DNA of 61,083 nt from a virus: the IMG/VR virus record IMGVR_UViG_3300043640_000419, positions 1 through 61,083 of that record, one strand, 5' to 3'. Each line of letters begins with the position of its first letter. Positions within the stretch are counted from its first letter, which is position 1. Under the pieces are notes generated by a model. The model searched no databases and was not told the DNA's origin. It saw only the letters and a list, made by a program, of their open reading frames with translations. Positions 3,516-61,083 of this stretch are shown here, one piece after another. The position numbers were made by a program, and so were the translations under genes.

Positions 3516-3794
3516 ATGGACAGCCGCGAAACCTACCTCATGCCCCATGTCGCGGTGGCCGCCTTCCCCGAGTTGCTTGACCTGATGGTCGTCGAGAAGG
3601 ACTTCCCTCGTACGTACGCCGAGTGGGTCGCTCTATGGGAAAGTCGGCGCTTCGAAGAGGAGCGCGTCCATGGCTACAGGGTTGTATTCGTCGATGTCGT
3701 TCCTGCCACGTTCGCTATCTTTTGTCGGAACATGAACTTTCCCACGAGCTGGGGCGCGCTTGGGCAGTTTCTGGCGGCGGAGGCGGGACGGTGA
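3516..3794 (+). CDS. Conserved hypothetical protein
   Basis: 92 residues beginning MDSRETYLMPHVAVAAFPEL. The frame is open much further upstream, but upstream composition is non-coding (Arg/Pro-rich) and this ATG begins protein-like sequence. Motifs EKDFPRTYAEWVALWESRR and a hydrophobic FVDVVPATFAIFC strand are visible. No function assigned. The last 20 residues are Ala/Gly-rich. Confidence 0.45.
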   Translation: MDSRETYLMPHVAVAAFPELLDLMVVEKDFPRTYAEWVALWESRRFEEERVHGYRVVFVDVVPATFAIFCRNMNFPTSWGALGQFLAAEAGR

Positions 3795-6714: not shown

Positions 6715-7947
6715 TCACGCCCATTCTCCCACCTCAACGAAGCGGCGCGGCTCCCGCTTGTCGTCTTCCTTCTCGATCTCGATTAGGGCGCCGCTCTTCA
6801 GCCAGGTCTTCAGCAAGGTCTTTGCCTTGGCCTTGTCCGCCGGCTCGTCGAGGTCGAGGTTGAGGGCGTCAGCGATCGGCCTGCCTACCCAGGCCGCCGC
6901 TTGCACGTCGGCGCGCCAAGCTCCGGCCGCCACCTTGTTCTGGACCTGCCGCAGGTGATCCGCGGTCATGCCAGCAAACGCATCCGGCCACGACCACGAA
7001 GCGACGACGCCCGACAGTGTCTTCCGGGTAGCCCTCGACGCCGTTGTCGAGCCCTACGCTAACAAGCTGGCGCCAACTCGCCTGGTCGCCGGGCGGGGCC
7101 ATGCTTGCCTTGCCGTTGTCGACGCGGAAATAGAGGCGCCGCGCAGTCGGCTCGATGCCGGCCTTGGCCGCCTCGTCCTGCGTCATGGGGTTGATGACGC
7201 GGGCACTGCGGGCAGCTGCGATCAGCGCGCCGGCTCCGCGAGCATCGTCCACGGTGTCCTCGCCTCCGTTACCTTTTCGAACGTGATGCACGACTTGACG
7301 GCGCAGTTGGCGGCATCGGCGATTCCGGCCAGATCCTTCGCGACCGTGTCGATCGCGCCGTTGTCGTTTTCGCTGACGGCGTGAGTCGATACGAAGGGGT
7401 CGAGGATTAGAACATCGATGCCGCGTTGAACGATGTTTCTGGTGGCGGATTCCACCAGCGGCTTGTTGACGACGATGCCCGTACGCCTGTCCTCGCGGGC
7501 GATGCAGAACGGCTGGCTTCGGCCACTGTCGAGATAAAGCCTGTCGCCGATGTCGTCAGCGTTGAGACCATACTGGCGAGCGATCGCCTGGACCCGCCGT
7601 TGTAGTTCCTCGACGGGATCCTCGAGATTCCAATACCAGACCCGCCGGTGCACGATTGCTTTGCCAGTTAGCAGGTCGCGGCCGCTCGCCATGCTTATCG
7701 CGTCGAGCAGCACGATGGATGACTTGCCGGTCCCGCTCGCGGCGGCAGTCGCGCTCAGGTATTTCCGAATGTAGTGCTTGGCGTGCAGCCATTGGCGGGG
7801 TGGGATCGCCGTCGGGTCGATCCATTGATAGGCTGAAGCGACAATCGAGCTCGGGCTTGCGCTATCGCCAGCGCTGATGGAATCAAGCGCCTCCCGGAGT
7901 GCATCGAACTGGCTCGTGTCTGGCCAGGGTGTCCAGGCTGTCGCCAT
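6715..7947 (-). pseudogene. RepA-type AAA ATPase with two compensating frameshifts
   Basis: The N-terminal frame has Walker A AASGTGKSS and a Walker B-like IDVLILDPFVSTHAVSENDN, typical of phage/plasmid RecA-fold ATPases (AAA_25/RepA). Near 7303 one base is missing, and VVHHVRKGNGGEDTVDDARG continues in the next frame. Near 7012 an extra G in a GGG run restores the first frame, which ends SWSWPDAFAGMTADHLRQVQ onward with a winged-helix-like tail. The three pieces together make a normal-length protein of about 410 residues. As read it is broken. Confidence 0.75.
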
Positions 7948-11940: not shown

Positions 11941-12222
11941 ATGGAAACATCCACTCGCCCAGACGGTCTTGATCCAATCATGGCAGAAATCATCGAAGCA
12001 CTTGCACGAACAATGGTTAACAATGACAACACCAAGCAGCGTCGGCTCGTCGAGTTCAAGGACGGTTGCCGCTATGGCAAATTCGGAAAAACCAAGGCTT
12101 ATGAGCTTGTCGCCCAACAGCGGATCAAAGCTTTCAAAATGGGAGGCAAAACCATGATCGACCTCGACAGCGTGGACGAATATCACGCCTCGCTGCCCAG
12201 GGTCGAATCCAGAGCCAGCTAG
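11941..12222 (+). CDS. Excisionase-like DNA-binding protein convergent with integrase
   Basis: 93 residues from the ATG at 11941. An in-frame start 27 codons upstream gives Pro/Arg-rich sequence. GCRYGKFGKTKAYELVAQQR, then IKAFKMGGKTMIDLDSVDEY, matches the winged-helix pattern of excisionase/AlpA proteins. Its stop overlaps the stop of the convergent integrase within CTAG. Likely role: recombination directionality factor or regulator for that integrase. Confidence 0.65.
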   Translation: METSTRPDGLDPIMAEIIEALARTMVNNDNTKQRRLVEFKDGCRYGKFGKTKAYELVAQQRIKAFKMGGKTMIDLDSVDEYHASLPRVESRAS

Positions 12223-13514
12223 GCTGCGAACCTACTTAGCAGGACGGAACGCTTCTCGTCGCGCAGGCTATCGAGCCGATCAGCCCAATGCTGCATTAAA
12301 CGCACGCGCTCGGCCCAATAGGCCGCACGGTTATAGATGCCGCGAATCTTGTTCTTGTCGCCCTTTCCAAGCTGGCGTCGCACCACCTCGGCGCCACGCC
12401 GCCGCTTTTTTTCCGCCGTGTCATGGGCAAGTTGGGATTCCACTACATCGCCGTCAAACGCGCCTTCCTCGTTGAGCAAGGTCGACGCGGTCGAGCGGAA
12501 GCCGTGCGCGCAGTGGTCGCCACCGGGACCGGTCGCATAGCCCATGATCCGTAGGGCCTTGTTGAGCGTGTTGTCGGACATAGGCACAGCATCATCGTAT
12601 GAGAATAAGTAGCGGCATTGCCCGGTCAAAGGTCGCAGCTTCGCAAGGATAGCAAGCGCCTGATCGGATAGAGGCACTTCGTGAGCATCGCGCATCTTCA
12701 TCTTCTCGGCGGGGATCAGCCATACCCGGTTCGTCTCGTCGAATTCAGTCCACTCCGCTAGCCGCAGTTCGCCCGGCCGCACCATGGTCAAGGCGATCAG
12801 CTTCAGCGCATAGCGCACAAGCCCGCCGTTCTTGGCGTCGTAAACTTCAATCCGGCGCATCAGGTCGCCGACGTCGTCCGGGTCGGTCAGCGCCGGACGC
12901 GGATTGGACTTGGGTGCCTTGGTAAGCGCGTGCTTCAAATCGCGGGTGGGGTCGCTGCCGCAATACGACGCACCAATACCAAATTGGAAGACCCGCGAGG
13001 CCGTCGAGCGCAGCCGGCCGACGGTGTAATATCGGCCGCGGGCTTCGACGCGTCGCATTGCGGTCAGCAACTCGGGCGGCTCGATCTCGCACAATGGTCG
13101 ATCGCCAAGCTCGCTGTCGAGCTGACCGAGATTCCACCGTTCCCGCTTGATCGTCGCTTTTGCCTTGTTTTCCTTTTCGAGCCTCTTGGTCACCCATTCC
13201 TCGCCGACTGCACGAAAGGTGTGCTTGTGCTTCTCGTCGTCCCTTCGCTTCGCCTCACGCACTGCGGCGGGGTCCTGCCCCTGATCAAGTAATTTCTCGG
13301 CATCGTGGCGCTTCTCGCGCGCGGCCCTCAGGCCCACGCCGGGGAAGGTGCCAAAGGACAGGTTCTTGCGTTTGCCGCCGAAACGATAGCGGTAGAGCCA
13401 CAGCTTGGTCCCGTTGTGCCGCACCACGACGCTAAGGCCTTGGCCGTCGGCAATGGTGTATTCCTTGTCAATCGGCTTGGCATTGCGGATTTTCGTGTCG
13501 CTAAGTTCATCCAT
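12219..13514 (-). CDS. int: IntA/P4-type tyrosine integrase, apparently intact
   Basis: 431 residues from ATG 13514. The frame is open 39 codons further, but upstream sequence is not protein-like. The N-terminal DUF4102 domain has DGQGLSVVVRHNGTKLWLYR and GTFPGVGLRAAREKR; the catalytic domain shows RPGELRLAEW, HGFRSTASTLLNE, a further His in QLAHDTAEKKRR and the nucleophile Tyr in IYNRAAYW. Length is normal for the family. The gene reads away from a tRNA-Phe 3' fragment 200 bp upstream, consistent with integration at tRNA-Phe. Confidence 0.9.
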   Translation of the reverse strand: MDELSDTKIRNAKPIDKEYTIADGQGLSVVVRHNGTKLWLYRYRFGGKRKNLSFGTFPGVGLRAAREKRHDAEKLLDQGQDPAAVREAKRRDDEKHKHTFRAVGEEWVTKRLEKENKAKATIKRERWNLGQLDSELGDRPLCEIEPPELLTAMRRVEARGRYYTVGRLRSTASRVFQFGIGASYCGSDPTRDLKHALTKAPKSNPRPALTDPDDVGDLMRRIEVYDAKNGGLVRYALKLIALTMVRPGELRLAEWTEFDETNRVWLIPAEKMKMRDAHEVPLSDQALAILAKLRPLTGQCRYLFSYDDAVPMSDNTLNKALRIMGYATGPGGDHCAHGFRSTASTLLNEEGAFDGDVVESQLAHDTAEKKRRRGAEVVRRQLGKGDKNKIRGIYNRAAYWAERVRLMQHWADRLDSLRDEKRSVLLSRFAA

Positions 13515-13716
13515 GAGAATGGTCCCTCGTAAACGGCGGACCGCCGGTGTACCCGGCCTTTCAGGTGTACCCACAGTGTACCCAGAATCGCCGGATGCCC
13601 AAGGACGGCCGCGAACCGTGCCGGCCAGCAATATGCGCTGAAATGCCTGATTTTACGAGGGTTCTGAGTAGCCGGCGAACGCGCGCGGACGACAAAGAAC
13701 CAGGCCGGATGGAAAA

Positions 13717-21258: not shown

Positions 21259-21543
21259 TCAGGAGCGGAACGACCCTTGAACGGGAGCGATCTTCGCCTC
21301 CAGGGCATCGAACTCTTCCGTGGTGACGGCGCCCGGTTGGGCCATGACGGCCTGCACCGCAGTGACGATGTTGCTGACCTCAATGCCGGCTTCGGCTGCC
21401 GGCGCCACGAGATCGAGCACCTCGTTCAGGAACGCACCGACGCCCTGATCCGACTTGCTGAGACCAGCCAGATTGAGACCGGCGGTGACCATCGGTCCGA
21501 GCACCGGGGCGAGCGCGCTGATTACGCCTAGAATTGAGAGCAT
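21259..21543 (-). CDS. Small phage protein of the lysis region
   Basis: 94 residues. The N-terminus MLSILGVISALAPVLGPMVT is hydrophobic and membrane-active-looking; then LAGLSKSDQGVGAFLNEVLD, and a C-terminal EEFDALEAKIAPV helix like small accessory holin-region proteins. Family not assigned. Confidence 0.5.
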   Translation of the reverse strand: MLSILGVISALAPVLGPMVTAGLNLAGLSKSDQGVGAFLNEVLDLVAPAAEAGIEVSNIVTAVQAVMAQPGAVTTEEFDALEAKIAPVQGSFRS

Positions 21544-50602: not shown

Positions 50603-51677
50603 TTGGTTGTCCCCTCTCACGGAAAATCTGCATGACGTCGGCCACCTCGGCCGCTTTGCTGACGGCGGCCGGTGGCGATCGCGCCTTCATGCCGTCGTCG
50701 TAATTTCCATCGGCGCATTTGCGGAAGTTGGCGGTCTTCGAGAACCAATCCAGGTTGAAGCCGCGCATTTCCTCGCGCACGAAGTTGGATGCTTCGGCCT
50801 TGGCCAGGACCGCCAGCCAGCACCCGATACCACCTGCATCCCCGATCCTTCGCCGCAGTGCCTTGCGGCGATCGGCATCGAACTGTTTCGGCACAGGCCA
50901 CCTGCCGACGCGACGGGCTGCTTCGCACCAGGCGTCGAAGGCGATCACCTCAGGCGAGCGTCCGCTGTTGTCGACCAGCAACACCGTTTGCGCATCGCAA
51001 GCGGCGCCAGCCGCGATAGTGGTTCCAGTATGGTTCTTACTTACCTCATGGAGAGAGCTTGAAGACAGAAAGACTGAAGAAGGCGCGGTTTTGCCGGATG
51101 GGTTGCCGATGTCTTTGCTGTCTCCGTTGATGGCCGTTTGCCGACTAGCTTCTGATTGTTCGCCCCCGATTTCCCTTTTGTCTTCGTCACTTAGACCAGC
51201 TTCACTGTCACCAGATTTGCCGCCACCGTTGCCGCCACCGTTGCCGCCACCGTTGCCGCCACCGTTGCTGGGGTGTTTGCCGGACTTTTGCCGCTGGCTG
51301 TTTGTGGCGTCGGCGCCGCGTTTTCCCGCCTCGGACCGGGCGTTCGAGATGCCGGCTTCGCGCACCATCCGCCGGCAGAACACGCGACCCTGAGCGTCGA
51401 CTTCGGCCACTTCGAATTGGATCAGGGCGTCGAGCAGCGCGGTGCATTCCTCGATCGAGATCCTGCAGAGGCCTGCGAACAGCGCGGGCAGATCCTCGCG
51501 CTTCGACGGGTGCGCCCCGATCAGAACCACGCCGTGCTCTGGCGAGCGCGCCGCGGCGCCGATCATGCGCAGCCACAACGCCTCGGCCGCGAGCGGGCAG
51601 TACTTCAAGCCGGGCTCGGCTTCCCAATCGTTGAAGAAGAAGAGCAGGCTCGGGTTTTTGCGGTTCCTGTCAGCCAC
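50592..51677 (-). CDS. Replication initiator, lambda O-like, with internal iterons
   Basis: 361 residues. An N-terminal winged-helix-type domain (LLFFFNDWEAEPGLKYCPLA, ALWLRMIGAAARSPEHGVVL) is followed by a low-complexity linker with (NGGG)n and GKSGDSEAGLSDEDKREIGG. A C-terminal domain has FDAWCEAARRVGRWPVPKQF and GGIGCWLAVLAKAEASNFVR. As in lambda O, the DNA for the linker contains tandem repeats, likely the origin. Overlaps the loader-like gene. Confidence 0.7.
   Translation of the reverse strand: MADRNRKNPSLLFFFNDWEAEPGLKYCPLAAEALWLRMIGAAARSPEHGVVLIGAHPSKREDLPALFAGLCRISIEECTALLDALIQFEVAEVDAQGRVFCRRMVREAGISNARSEAGKRGADATNSQRQKSGKHPSNGGGNGGGNGGGNGGGKSGDSEAGLSDEDKREIGGEQSEASRQTAINGDSKDIGNPSGKTAPSSVFLSSSSLHEVSKNHTGTTIAAGAACDAQTVLLVDNSGRSPEVIAFDAWCEAARRVGRWPVPKQFDADRRKALRRRIGDAGGIGCWLAVLAKAEASNFVREEMRGFNLDWFSKTANFRKCADGNYDDGMKARSPPAAVSKAAEVADVMQIFRERGQPNGQ
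51219..51266. repeat. Four perfect 12-bp tandem repeats inside the initiator gene
   Basis: GCCGCCACCGTT is repeated without variation at 51219, 51231, 51243 and 51255, and encodes NGGG on the minus strand. Lambda-type origins are iterons within the O gene. Function as origin is inferred. Confidence 0.7.
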
Positions 51678-54196: not shown

Positions 54197-54448
54197 TCAG
54201 ACTCGGGCCTCCGTCGAACGTGGCGGCCGTGCTAGGCGTCGCTTCACGGTTGGGGCTTCAAAAAGGTCGGGGCGCAGATCGTGCCGCGCCACCTTCCCGC
54301 CAGTAGCTTCCTCGATCGCTCGGCAGATGTCGGCAGGGACCTTCTCCCGTAGCAGCCATACGGCTACGTGCCCTTGTCGCTTACCGATCAGCTTGGCGAG
54401 GGCAGTTTGCCCTCCTACGATTTTGCAGGCAGTTCGCAGAGCGCTCAT
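54197..54448 (-). CDS. YdaS/Cro-like regulator
   Basis: 83 residues, SALRTACKIVGGQTALAKLI, KRQGHVAVWLLREKVPADIC, then RAIEEATGGKVARHDLRPDL: the YdaS_antitoxin/Cro-type helix-turn-helix. It is divergent from the CI-like gene, the classic cI/cro arrangement. A coupled 38-residue frame (54081-54197) follows with little support. Expected to repress early or CI-like promoters. Confidence 0.75.
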   Translation of the reverse strand: MSALRTACKIVGGQTALAKLIGKRQGHVAVWLLREKVPADICRAIEEATGGKVARHDLRPDLFEAPTVKRRLARPPRSTEARV

Positions 54449-54524
54449 GACCGCGCCTTTACCACTACTGTTGTTGTATCGTCAACCAACCTCTGTTGTT
54501 GTGATGTGCTTTAAGGTCATTGCC
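54449..54524. promoter_or_regulatory. CI/Cro-like divergent operator and promoter region
   Basis: CTGTTGTTGT occurs at 54468-54477 and 54493-54502, 25 bp apart. On the minus strand TTGACG (54480-54485) with TAAAGG 18 bases on makes a plausible promoter for the YdaS-like gene. The rightward CI-like gene has TTAAGG before its ATG at 54525. Shared CTGTTGT also occurs downstream of the repressor gene. Confidence 0.5.
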
Positions 54525-55223
54525 ATGAGTACCCTTGGAGAAAGAGTGGCCGCCGAACGAGAGGCACGCCAGATGACCCAGACTGCGCTCGCCAAGCGCG
54601 TCACCCTCTACGGGTTCAAGATTAGTCAGCAGGGCATAGGGCAGATCGAGAGTCGCGGCGACACAAGACCTAAGTGCATAGTTGAGCTGGCTGCGGCACT
54701 AGAGGTCAATCCGGAGTGGCTCAAGACGGGCAAGGGACTGAAGTTCGCTGGAAACACGCGGCGTATCGAGCAAGATCCAGAAGCAACCGCCGCCGCGATG
54801 CGGGAATTGAGTAGCCGGGGGAGCGTGGCACACCGTGATCTTCCCTTGTGGCGATCAATTGATGGACCAAGTGGGAGTTGGTTGCTCGCGCCCAGTGACG
54901 AGGACTTTGTTCTCCGACCCGAGCCGCTCATCGGCGCACGGGACGGCTTCGCTTGCCGTGTCCTTGGGCGAGGGGCAGAACCGATATATCGGCAGGGCGA
55001 GCTAATTTTCGCCAATCCGTTGCGCACGGTTACCGCAGGCGACGATTGCCTTTTCCTCGGCTCGGCACAACGAGGAGGAATCCATTCCGCCATCATCGGC
55101 CGTGTGGTCGCCTTCCCCGACGATGGATGGCTAATCGACCAATTTGGCAAAGACGACAAGCTCATCAGCCGAAAAGAGTGGCCTACCACCACTCTGGTCG
55201 TTGCAAAGCACAACAAATTTTAA
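54525..55223 (+). CDS. CI-like repressor with S24-type domain lacking the catalytic Ser
   Basis: 232 residues from ATG 54525. Residues 5-60 are an HTH_3 domain (VAAEREARQMTQTALAKRVT, ISQQGIGQIESRG). Residues about 138-230 follow the S24/LexA-like fold (FACRVLGRGAEPIYRQGELI, TAGDDCLFLG). At 148-153 the usual GDSMEP is GRGAEP, so the nucleophile Ser is missing. Self-cleavage with RecA is therefore unlikely. Expected to maintain lysogeny by binding CTGTTGT operators. Confidence 0.8.
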   Translation: MSTLGERVAAEREARQMTQTALAKRVTLYGFKISQQGIGQIESRGDTRPKCIVELAAALEVNPEWLKTGKGLKFAGNTRRIEQDPEATAAAMRELSSRGSVAHRDLPLWRSIDGPSGSWLLAPSDEDFVLRPEPLIGARDGFACRVLGRGAEPIYRQGELIFANPLRTVTAGDDCLFLGSAQRGGIHSAIIGRVVAFPDDGWLIDQFGKDDKLISRKEWPTTTLVVAKHNKF

Positions 55224-55290
55224 CAACACCTGTAGTTGACTGTTGTACAACTGACGCTTAAGAGTCGGCTCACCACCTCGGGAGCCGCCA
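55224..55290 (+). promoter_or_regulatory. Rightward early promoter with embedded operator
   Basis: TTGACT (55236-55241) and TAAGAG (55259-55264) are 17 bases apart. The spacer contains GTTGTACAAC, a perfect 10-bp palindrome, within CTGTTGTACAAC, which shares CTGTTGT with the repressor region operators. It precedes the plus-strand operon that starts at 55291. Confidence 0.55.
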
Positions 55291-55563
55291 TTGCCGACCG
55301 CCGCCGCTACCATCACCTTCGCCCGCCGCCAACGCGTCCGCACGCTCTACCAGCACAGCGAGACCGCCACGATCGTCGGCAAGGAGCCGGCCCACGTACT
55401 GGACGGCCGCTGGTACATCGTAGCGTGGGATGACGGCGGCGGCGCCTGCATCCACGAGGACATGCTGGCAGCGTCCAACGATCCGCCGTTCAAGGGCCGA
55501 CTGCCGCTGATCCACAAGGTGACCGGTCGGCCAAAGGCTGAATACGCCGGGGTGGTGCAGTGA
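55291..55563 (+). CDS. Hypothetical early protein, first gene of rightward operon
   Basis: 90 residues from TTG 55291 (GGAG eight bases upstream). ATITFARRQRVRTLYQHSET, GKEPAHVLDGRWYIVAWDDG, HEDMLAASNDPPFKGRLPLI. Mostly beta. Overlaps the Rha gene by four bases (GTGATG). Function unknown. Confidence 0.5.
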   Translation: MPTAAATITFARRQRVRTLYQHSETATIVGKEPAHVLDGRWYIVAWDDGGGACIHEDMLAASNDPPFKGRLPLIHKVTGRPKAEYAGVVQ

Positions 55564-56375
55564 TGCGCGCGCTCACCCCCGCCACCGAACTGCTCGGCCC
55601 GACCGAGCAGACCATGTCCAGCCGCGAGATCGCGGAGCTGACCGAGAAGCGCCACGACAACGTAATGCGCGACGTCCGCGCCATGTTGGTCGAGCTCCAC
55701 GGCGAAGGAGACCTCCTCAGATTTGAGGGCGTCTACCGCGGGGCCAATGGCGAGGATCGTCCGTGCTTCAATCTTCCGAAGCGCGAGACCCTGATCCTGG
55801 TCTCCGGCTACGATGTCCACCTTCGGGCCAAGATCATCGATCGCTGGCAGCAACTCGAGGTCGAAGTCCAGGCCGCCGCGATCTTCGAAAGCCCAGCGGC
55901 GATGCGAGGCCTGCTGCTGACCTACAGTGAAAAGGTCATCGCCCTGGAGACGCAGGTCGAGGACATGCGCGAGGACGTGGCCGCCCACGAGCGGCTGACC
56001 AAGGCCGATGGCTCCTTGAATGTCACCGAGACCGCGAAGAACCTCGGCATGCGTCCGAAGGACCTGTTCAAGTGGCTGGCGGAGCACGGCTGGACCTACA
56101 AGCGACCGGGCAGCGCTGCGTGGCTGGGCTATGCGGCGAAGTGCAATGACGGCCTGCTCGAGCACAAGACCACGACCGTCACCCGCGCCGACGGCACCGA
56201 GAAGATCACGGAGCAGGTCCGCGTCACGCCGAAGGGCCTTTCGAGGCTGGCGAAGCTGATCAAGCCCACCGCCGTGCTTCTGCCCCTCACGCCGATAACG
56301 ACGAACAAGTCGACCGATAACCACGATTTCAAAGCGAGCCTTGGGGCCGGCTGGAACCCGACCCCAAGGCTCTGA
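55560..56375 (+). CDS. Rha-KilAC antirepressor-like protein
   Basis: 271 residues. N-terminal Rha domain (MSSREIAELTEKRHDNVMRD, VYRGANGEDRPCFNLPKRET, LILVSGYDVHLRAKIIDRWQ) and C-terminal KilAC/ANT domain (SLNVTETAKNLGMRPKDLFK, WLAEHGWTYKRPGSAAWLGY, VRVTPKGLSRLAKLI). Such proteins act as phage antirepressors or regulators. It lies just downstream of a repressor lacking its catalytic Ser, so it could trigger induction. Confidence 0.85.
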   Translation: MMRALTPATELLGPTEQTMSSREIAELTEKRHDNVMRDVRAMLVELHGEGDLLRFEGVYRGANGEDRPCFNLPKRETLILVSGYDVHLRAKIIDRWQQLEVEVQAAAIFESPAAMRGLLLTYSEKVIALETQVEDMREDVAAHERLTKADGSLNVTETAKNLGMRPKDLFKWLAEHGWTYKRPGSAAWLGYAAKCNDGLLEHKTTTVTRADGTEKITEQVRVTPKGLSRLAKLIKPTAVLLPLTPITTNKSTDNHDFKASLGAGWNPTPRL

Positions 56376-57900: not shown

Positions 57901-58514
57901 TGTCTATCAGCACCGGCGTGCACGCCGACAATGTTGCTCCGCCCGTCATTGCGCCGCGCACGCCCCGCCGCAAGAAGTCGAAGGCTCTCGGGCCCCAGGC
58001 TTTTGCGCAGCAGGTCGTCGATGCCTTGCTGCCTCTCGCCGATGGCGAGGAGCTTCGCGACGGGGTTGGCAGGAAGGACATCTACCTCGCGGTCGTACCC
58101 TTCTTCGCTGAGTTTACGATCGCCGATGCCGTGGCCTCGCACGCGATGTTCACGGCGGTTCGCGACTCGACGCCCTACGGGACCGGCGACAGATACACCG
58201 CCGCCTTCACCATCCTCGAGATACTGGAGGATTTCATCTGCGCCGCCTTCCCGTCCGGTCCGGAGTGCGTCGCGGCGATGGCCCACTTCGCCACGCTCAC
58301 CATGGATGGGACCGACGATCCGGTGGTGTGGCCTGATGGCTTCCGGAGCCTGCTGAAGCAGATCTGCACCGGCATCGGCCATCTTCGTAGCGGCAGTCGC
58401 TTTACGATGGGCGAGCGCTTTGGAGTTCCAGCAGGCACGTCCTTGGCCGCCTCGTGGGTAGGACGGTGCTGCGGCTTCAAGGAGTTCGCAGCGCTGCGGG
58501 AGCCGGAGGAGTGA
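57900..58514 (+). CDS. Hypothetical early protein, paralogue 2
   Basis: 204 residues from ATG 57900, sharing an A with the preceding TAA. RTPRRKKSKALGPQAFAQQV, VDALLPLADGEELRDGVGRK, DIYLAVVPFFAEFTIADAVA parallels the previous protein position by position. CxxC only once (RCCGF). Function unknown. Confidence 0.5.
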   Translation: MSISTGVHADNVAPPVIAPRTPRRKKSKALGPQAFAQQVVDALLPLADGEELRDGVGRKDIYLAVVPFFAEFTIADAVASHAMFTAVRDSTPYGTGDRYTAAFTILEILEDFICAAFPSGPECVAAMAHFATLTMDGTDDPVVWPDGFRSLLKQICTGIGHLRSGSRFTMGERFGVPAGTSLAASWVGRCCGFKEFAALREPEE

Positions 58515-58708
58515 AGGCCCCGAGAGCGAGCTGTGGATTCTGCGGCAGGGACAAGGACGCGGTGAAGATCTTGATCGTCAACGCCATCGGGATGGACGCC
58601 GCGATCTGCGATCAGTGCGTCGAGCGTGCCGTCGAAGAGGTCGACCGGCAGCGCGAGCAGCGGCGCACACGGAAAGCCGAGGCGACCAGGGAACGGAGCG
58701 GCGCATGA
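58511..58708 (+). CDS. ClpX-type C4 zinc finger protein
   Basis: 65 residues from GTG 58511 (GGAGGA nearby). CGFCGRDKDAVKILIVNAIG and AICDQCVERAVEEVD match the N-terminal zinc-binding domain of ClpX (zf-C4_ClpX) with both CxxC pairs. No AAA domain follows. A free zinc domain could dimerise with, or divert, host ClpX. Overlaps both neighbours by four bases. Confidence 0.75.
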   Translation: MKAPRASCGFCGRDKDAVKILIVNAIGMDAAICDQCVERAVEEVDRQREQRRTRKAEATRERSGA

Positions 58709-59385: not shown

Positions 59386-59679
59386 ATGGGTGCCCGCCCT
59401 CGCCTCTCGCGCGACTGGCCTTACCTGATGCGCCTCGCGACCGCCCGCGCCTATCTCGACGGCATGGCGCTGGTCAAATTCACCGCTCTAGTCGCGCCCC
59501 ACCTCGAGACCAAGATCGTCGGCGACGAGGTGCGGTACACCCGTCACTCGCTCGACGCCTGGATTGACGGCGGCGGCAAGCCGGGCAACCTTGAGACGCC
59601 CTCGGACCTCGCGCGGGCACTGCAGCAGGATGGCGATGACGACGATCAGGATCGCAGGCGTCAAGGGCTACGTCAGTAA
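59386..59679 (+). CDS. Excisionase-like small protein
   Basis: 97 residues from ATG 59386, three bases after the previous stop region. MGARPRLSRDWPYLMRLATA, RAYLDGMALVKFTALVAPHL and VGDEVRYTRHSLDAWIDGG resemble excisionase-type winged-helix proteins with a basic tail. It overlaps the integrase start by 50 bases, the expected place for xis. Directionality role inferred. Confidence 0.6.
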   Translation: MGARPRLSRDWPYLMRLATARAYLDGMALVKFTALVAPHLETKIVGDEVRYTRHSLDAWIDGGGKPGNLETPSDLARALQQDGDDDDQDRRRQGLRQ

Positions 59680-60796
59680 CGGCACGCCCTACTTCTACCT
59701 GCGCGCGAGCGGCGAGCGGATATTAGATCCCGCAACGAAGCAGCCGATCGACCCACTGCGCCAGCCCGAGGCATTCGTGGCGCGCGTCGAGGAGATGAAG
59801 AAGGCGCTGGCGGCACAGCCGGCGCCGGCGGCCGCCAAGGCCGGCACCCTGCTCGAGCTAGTCGAATTCTGGCGCGGCTCGCCCGGCACGGAGGGCCGGC
59901 CCAGGCGCGAGCCGTCGCTCGAATGGCTGGCGCTGAAGCCCGCGACCAAGATCAGCTACGAACGCATGGTCGACCCGGCGCGGGGCTACCTGCGGCGCGG
60001 GTTGCGCATGAAGCTTGACCGCATCTTCCTGTCGGCGCTCGACACCCCCAACGTCGTCACCTTCCGCGACAAGGTCGCCACGCGCTTCGGATTCTGGACC
60101 GGCAACTATGTGATCAAGGTGCTGCGGCCGCTGTTCAAATGGGCGAAGCTGCACGGCCACATGAAGACCAATCCGGCCGCCGATATCCCGCTGCTCAAGC
60201 GGCCGGACGGCATGGCGGTGCAGCACCCGTCCTGGACCGATATCGAGTTCGAGATCATGCTGGCTGCGGCGCGCGAGAAGCAGTGGGACGGCGTCGTGCT
60301 GACCTTCGCCCTGGCTCGTTTCGCCGGCTGGCCGATCGGCGATTGCGTAAACCAGCCGCCGTCGGCGTGGCAGGATCCGCGTCTGGTCTATATCCGCAAG
60401 AAGCGCGGCGGTGCCGGCAAGCTCAATAGCGTCAAGGCGCCGAAGCGGCTGGCCGAGATCCTGCGCGAGTTCGCCGCCGACACCAATGCCGAGACGCTGG
60501 TCACCAACCAGAGCGACGAGCGCTACACCGAGGACGGCATGCGCACGATGGTGTGGAAGCTCTGCACAGAGCTGGCCGAGCAGAAGAAGGTCCGTCCCGG
60601 ACTAAACATCCACGGCCTGCGCCACTCGCTCGGCAAGGAGCTTTACGAGCTCGGCCTCGAGCGCGAGGCGCGCAAGGCGATGATGGCGCACGAGAGCGAC
60701 GAGGCCAGCAAGGTGTACGAGCGCGACGGCGATCGCCGCATCCATGCCGACAAGGCGGTCGTGGCACTGAACAGGAATCGGAGAACCCGCAAGTGA
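59630..60796 (+). CDS. int: Phage tyrosine integrase (atypical first catalytic residue)
   Basis: 388 residues from ATG 59630 (second ATG 59636). Core-binding domain with LDTPNVVTFRDKVATRFGFW. Catalytic region: FAGWPIGDCVNQ where TGxRxGD is expected (Pro235 at the Arg I position), then HGLRHSLGKEL (His328, Arg331), His354 in MMAHESDEASK and Tyr363 in VYERDGDRR. So all but Arg I are present. A sequence change or an unusual family member. Expected to integrate the large prophage; att not visible. Confidence 0.8.
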   Translation: MAMTTIRIAGVKGYVSNGTPYFYLRASGERILDPATKQPIDPLRQPEAFVARVEEMKKALAAQPAPAAAKAGTLLELVEFWRGSPGTEGRPRREPSLEWLALKPATKISYERMVDPARGYLRRGLRMKLDRIFLSALDTPNVVTFRDKVATRFGFWTGNYVIKVLRPLFKWAKLHGHMKTNPAADIPLLKRPDGMAVQHPSWTDIEFEIMLAAAREKQWDGVVLTFALARFAGWPIGDCVNQPPSAWQDPRLVYIRKKRGGAGKLNSVKAPKRLAEILREFAADTNAETLVTNQSDERYTEDGMRTMVWKLCTELAEQKKVRPGLNIHGLRHSLGKELYELGLEREARKAMMAHESDEASKVYERDGDRRIHADKAVVALNRNRRTRK

Positions 60797-61083
60797 TGAT
60801 CGTCAACCAGAAATATCACTTCACGCCACCCAGCGGACCGCCGGATAGGCCGATCGTCGTGCTCGCTCTACAGGACTACTCGCCGGGACAGCAGCGCAAG
60901 ACTGACGTGTGGAAGATTGAACCGCCAGAAGGGCTCGCGGTGCTCTTCGGCAATCACGTCGAGTTCGATAGCTACCGATCGCTGATCGCCATGCTGGCGA
61001 CCACCTTTTGCCAAGGCGACCAGGCAGTAGCCGCGGAGCGCTTGGTTGCCGTCAGAACGGGAACAGAACAGGAAGGTGTCTAA
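60796..61083 (+). CDS. Hypothetical protein at the right end
   Basis: 95 residues from ATG 60796 (GTG 60793 possible), overlapping the integrase stop. MIVNQKYHFTPPSGPPDRPI, LALQDYSPGQQRKTDVWKIE, FGNHVEFDSYRSLIAMLATT. Alpha/beta, complete to TAA at the last base. May be the last phage gene or the first host gene. Function unknown. Confidence 0.5.
   Translation: MIVNQKYHFTPPSGPPDRPIVVLALQDYSPGQQRKTDVWKIEPPEGLAVLFGNHVEFDSYRSLIAMLATTFCQGDQAVAAERLVAVRTGTEQEGV

Follow-up and report, generated by a model that had tools for sequence, protein, structure and literature searches.

A CI-type repressor with a predicted dead S24 domain and a neighbouring Rha-KilAC gene in a putative alphaproteobacterial phage

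The CI-type repressor of the phage described here is predicted to have lost its self-cleavage site while keeping the fold of the S24/LexA peptidase domain, and it is encoded close to a Rha-KilAC protein of antirepressor type. The reading that we favour, with moderate confidence, is that a non-cleavable CI is combined with a CI-repressed Rha-KilAC antirepressor that is not the primary damage sensor. The window (the whole stretch of DNA that was analysed) is the IMG/VR virus record IMGVR_UViG_3300043640_000419, which has 61,083 bases and 65% GC. Gene similarity points to an alphaproteobacterial host: the best named match of DnaB is from a Caulobacter phage and that of Rha-KilAC from a Paracoccus phage, and the full-length matches of CI include Rhizobiales phages and plasmids. 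The features discussed below are listed in Table 1. Rfam and tRNA scans of the window gave no matches. Far from the integrase at 59564-60796, the window has a second tyrosine integrase (12219-13631, minus strand; phrog_1, 1.4e-58) and a primase/polymerase-like fragment (7222-7947, minus strand; phrog_906, 1.6e-26), and its left end may contain another mobile element or host-flank DNA.

Table 1. Positions of the switch genes, key codons and putative regulatory DNA in the window
Feature	Position	Strand	Basis and remarks
Cro/YdaS-like repressor, divergent from cI	54197..54448	-	Pfam YdaS_toxin 1.5e-20, P22_Cro 4e-4; phrog_35
Cro-cI intergenic region, putative OR	54449..54524		CTGTTGTTGT at 54468 and 54493; four TGTTGT hexamers
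CI-type repressor, 232 aa	54525..55223	+	434-Cro-like HTH and predicted catalytically dead S24/LexA-fold C-terminal domain; alignments, AlphaFold2/Foldseek
Asp113-Gly114, position of the self-cleavage dipeptide	54861..54866	+	A-G, M-G, V-G or Q-G in relatives
Gly150 codon (GGG), position of the catalytic Ser	54972..54974	+	Alignment
Gly192 codon, position of the general-base Lys	55098..55100	+	Alignment
Putative OL, cI 3' end	55204..55260		ACAACA at 55210 and 55223; palindrome GTTGTACAAC at 55242-55251
orf90, small ORF, 90 aa	55291..55563	+	Sequence; stop overlaps the Rha-KilAC start (TGATG)
Rha-KilAC antirepressor-type protein, 270 aa	55563..56375	+	Rha, residues 18-99; KilAC/ANT, residues 129-234
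Tyrosine integrase	59564..60796	+	Pfam Phage_integrase 3.7e-6; phrog_1 3.7e-17; end of the same left-type operon side

The repressor and its lost catalytic residues

Searches of Pfam and NCBIfam with CI returned only helix-turn-helix matches and no S24 match; the S24 assignment was therefore tested by profile, structure and tree. When CI is aligned with S24 repressors from Rhizobiales phages and others, its VLGRGAEP segment corresponds to their V-x-G-x-S-M-x-P motif and Gly150 falls in the serine column. Both the alignment and the HMM columns place Gly192 (in AIIGRV) at the position of the general-base lysine; a glycine is also seen there in four relatives that have the serine (L005, L007, L010 and L011). 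The linker lacks a cleavage dipeptide of the A-G or C-G type and has D-G instead. The AlphaFold2 model of CI has a mean pLDDT of 84, and its top Foldseek matches are cleavage-domain fragments of lambda CI (2hnf, E 3.5e-5; 2ho0, E 4.0e-5), with 434 Cro (2cro) matched by the N-terminus. Alignment and modelled fold together confirm the assignment of CI as a lambda-CI-type repressor with a predicted dead S24 domain.

The earlier note had read GRGAEP as a replacement of the catalytic-serine motif and had argued that SOS self-cleavage should fail. Both points stand, and the first was understated, as the glycine at the lysine position and the D-G dipeptide had been missed. Because serine, lysine and cleavage dipeptide are all lost, self-cleavage, including that stimulated by RecA, should not occur if the chemistry of lambda CI and LexA applies. 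The peptidase domain would thus have become a pseudo-protease, its lambda-type fold presumably being kept for dimerisation or cooperativity, and DNA damage probably cannot switch CI off by the classic route.

Close homologues of CI were sought in IMG/VR by peptide patterns and none was found. The nearest relatives recovered, L287 (35% identity) and L023 (32%), have both the serine and the lysine, and the loss therefore sits on the long branch of the window CI itself. A serine in relatives had been regarded beforehand as a sign against the prediction; it is present in these two and points to a branch-specific loss, not to cleavability of the window CI.

CI was also used as a query on 385 alphaproteobacterial genomes, from which 71 S24-type relatives were scored. 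The serine is present in 56 and replaced by R, A, N, T, E or D in 15, a count which, like the KilAC counts given below, is limited in that the profile may miss repressors that have degenerated further. None of the 15 retains the lysine. Across the 72 aligned sequences, the window included, the lysine is found in 53/56 of those with the serine and 0/16 of those without (Fisher 2e-13, uncorrected for kinship); such joint loss would be expected if catalytic sites decay as a whole. Loss of the serine as a single ancestral event was considered and is not required by a tree of 113 S24 domains, in which serine status changes at least 11 times, with only three of the changes forced by well-supported branches. 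Dead S24 repressors look recurrent on account of these changes and of the 15 serine-less relatives among the 71.

A non-cleaving CI is already known in kind, since 210 of 271 cI proteins from telomere phages were predicted by Silpe et al. not to be autoproteolytic (PMC10432266). The N15-type phages with such a cI resemble the window in this prediction; they differ in phage type, and no evidence of a TF-smORF module or of AntC was seen in the window. Two further arrangements were observed among the genomes. Rhizobium phage RHph_TM3_3_14B (L003, 2758-3336) has tandem S24-type repressors, one with Ser/Lys and the other with Val/Gly at these positions. A small, AT-rich genome (G271) has two serine-less repressors with glycine for the lysine (L292 and L322), which group near the window CI, and also a KilAC gene.

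Operator-like repeats and control of the Rha-KilAC gene

The hexamer TGTTGT (or ACAACA) occurs 27 times in the window, and seven of these occurrences are in two short flanks of cI. The 76-bp gap between Cro and cI contains four of them and a 57-bp stretch at the 3' end of cI the other three, and these clusters are the two densest of the record. Although the choice of this hexamer was post hoc, it was compared with the full set of hexamers, none of which reached the observed clustering in 1000 rounds of dinucleotide shuffling of both flanks. From these repeats, we infer that OR- and OL-like putative operators about 0.77 kb apart flank cI, a layout similar to that of HK022, in which the OL-OR spacing is about 700 bp (PMC8053113). 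In most relatives the same kind of scan found no flanking operator repeats, which speaks against a family-wide feature; weak signals were seen in L023 and L150. The window thus resembles the lambda CI/LexA system in its helix-turn-helix and S24 fold, its divergent Cro-like gene and the operator-like clusters on both sides of cI, and differs from it in that a CI without the catalytic serine, the lysine and an A-G type site is not expected to cleave itself.

The product of orf90 has no significant family match in Pfam, phrog or NCBIfam searches, and the gene probably shares an operon with Rha-KilAC. The latter is matched by the Pfam domains Phage_pRha (8.8e-18; 65.1 against a cut-off of 29.9 bits) and ANT (3.5e-30; 105 against 25.3 bits), and family membership suggests an antirepressor role. 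CI probably binds the TGTTGT-type putative operators in both flanks, and the repeat clusters suggest that it would thereby silence the operon on the Cro side as well as the orf90-Rha-KilAC operon downstream. As Rha-KilAC lies beyond the operator-like repeats flanking cI, the gene is probably silent in the lysogen. Consensus scans revealed neither a sigma-70 promoter nor a terminator, and read-through from cI into Rha-KilAC in the lysogen is therefore possible. Rha-KilAC would most likely be made only after CI repression fails, or on fresh infection, and would then reinforce lytic commitment or inactivate the repressors of other prophages, as do Fels-1 FsoA and P22 Ant; a role as the primary sensor of damage is improbable.

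Neither GTTC-N7-GTTC nor other LexA patterns were found at 54-57 kb, with the proviso that the alphaproteobacterial consensus may not be that of the host. Elsewhere in the window, GTTC-N7-GTTC has four matches (61055-61069, 51022-51036, 21268-21282 and 3699-3713) against about 1.3 expected from base composition, a rough estimate; all four are away from the CI/Rha-KilAC switch.

A gene at 58454-58708 (plus strand), which shares the operon direction of Rha-KilAC, encodes a small protein that has a C4 zinc finger of the ClpX type (PF06689, 1.5e-9) and could be a ClpX-related adaptor. ClpX is reported to be essential for inactivating CI in Staphylococcus aureus prophages (PMC10584840). By analogy with that precedent, it may be speculated that the zinc-finger protein offers an alternative route for removing a non-cleavable CI.

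KilAC genes and repressors in other genomes

The earlier note had gone on to propose that Rha-KilAC supplies induction in place of SOS cleavage and that the two proteins form a distinct switch. It had placed Rha-KilAC two genes away from the repressor, and its coordinates are right: one 90-codon ORF lies between cI and Rha-KilAC (55563-56375, plus strand). In the fullest form of this proposal, Rha-KilAC would be a dedicated inducer: its promoter would respond to damage or stress, and the protein would bind the non-cleavable CI and set off lysis in the manner of Tum, AntC and GfoA. The CI sequence is consistent with it, as are the position of Rha-KilAC next but one to cI on the same strand, the LexA-driven antirepressors known in Gifsy, 186 and N15 (PMC3121763) and an independent pairing in the L132 group, considered below. 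The putative CI operators ahead of the orf90-Rha-KilAC operon and the failure to find a LexA-type box near Rha-KilAC both argue against a replacement for SOS induction, and the comparison of genomes argues against a matched pair.

Among the 71 alphaproteobacterial relatives of CI, none, with or without the serine, has a Rha or KilAC gene within about 6 kb; this includes all 15 that are serine-less. With the window left out, 23 of the 28 viral loci that have KilAC or Rha together with an S24 repressor keep the serine, and five do not (L132, L133, L135, L150 and L165). A phylum-wide draw of Pseudomonadota genomes provided 38 KilAC regions, and every S24 repressor near KilAC in these has the serine (18/18), which gives 41/46 records over the viral and Pseudomonadota sets. 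A same-strand KilAC gene also lies downstream of a serine-bearing cI in L016, L032, L151, L246, L248, L251, L252 and L254. From these counts it follows that the pairing of a dead CI with KilAC is not conserved as a module. The candidate rule that loss of the serine goes with KilAC beside cI fails in general, and a dedicated inducer appears unlikely.

The pairing does recur once. L132, L133, L135 and L150 form one lineage together with L188, which a later scan added, in which CI has Leu for the serine and Arg for the lysine and a KilA-N-KilAC gene lies about 0.1 kb downstream on the same strand. This lineage is an independent parallel and the best natural match to the idea that a dead CI goes with KilAC. 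A CI without protease activity might even form a mutual-inhibition toggle with a Rha-KilAC that it represses, passing from lysogeny to lysis independently of SOS, and the L132 group would then be a second, independently assembled case; we regard this extension as rather unlikely.

Close homologues of Rha-KilAC are often found in P22-immI-like cassettes and not beside S24 repressors, which also goes against a matched switch. The homologue in Paracoccus phage Pyei1 (57% identical) is among tail genes, beside two Arc-type proteins, and 10 of 19 close virus records have a gene of the Arc family no more than about 1 kb upstream of Rha-KilAC. Cassettes of this kind, an Arc-family repressor followed by Rha-KilAC, were observed in alphaproteobacterial-type phages at L102 (7194-8789) and in G743, G749, G750, G752-G754, G756, G758, G760 and G761. 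Arc/Mnt (PF03869) was sought in the window and is absent. The likeness to P22 immI (mnt-arc-ant), whose Ant is not needed for induction, therefore extends to these homologues, whereas in the window itself Rha-KilAC lies downstream of cI.

It is alternatively conceivable, if rather doubtful, that Rha-KilAC acts on the repressors of resident or superinfecting phages, in anti-immunity or crosstalk, with no effect on its own CI. The immI-like cassettes with Arc-type regulators fit such a role, and foreign repressors are targets of both P22 Ant and FsoA (PMC3121763); the position beside its own cI is, however, equally compatible with a cognate target, and targets are not predicted by sequence.

Among known systems with antirepressors, the Gifsy prophages (GfoR/GtgR with GfoA/GftA) similarly combine a non-cleavable repressor with an antirepressor-type protein (PMC3121763). 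Their repressors are short, without a C-terminal domain, and their antirepressors, small proteins under LexA control, are encoded far from the immunity region (PMC3121763), whereas the window CI retains a C-terminal domain that is predicted to be dead and the switch has no LexA box close by. Fels-1 has its antirepressor FsoA in the left operon under its own repressor, FsoR (PMC3121763), as we infer for Rha-KilAC; it differs in that FsoR is cleavable and that FsoA is not reported as a Rha-KilAC protein.

That the phage is a defective or domesticated prophage, with a dead CI that reflects decay and not design, would agree with the loss of serine, lysine and cleavage site on one long branch but is very improbable, given that the switch-gene frames are all open, the CI fold is predicted with good confidence, the operator-like repeats are intact, portal and head protease genes are present in the window, and the recurrent paired loss of Ser and Lys in many lineages points to a tolerated or selected inactivation.

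Implications for induction

The favoured reading, a non-cleavable CI above a CI-repressed Rha-KilAC, bears on how inducibility is judged from sequence. About one-fifth of the recovered CI relatives keep the S24 fold without the catalytic site, usually with both residues lost together, so predicted dead repressors are frequent among phages of this group. Predictions of SOS inducibility made at the level of motifs can thus fail in alphaproteobacterial phages. The Rha-KilAC gene near the window CI is probably not its matching trigger. Should the toggle between CI and Rha-KilAC prove true, it would provide an SOS-independent route to induction.
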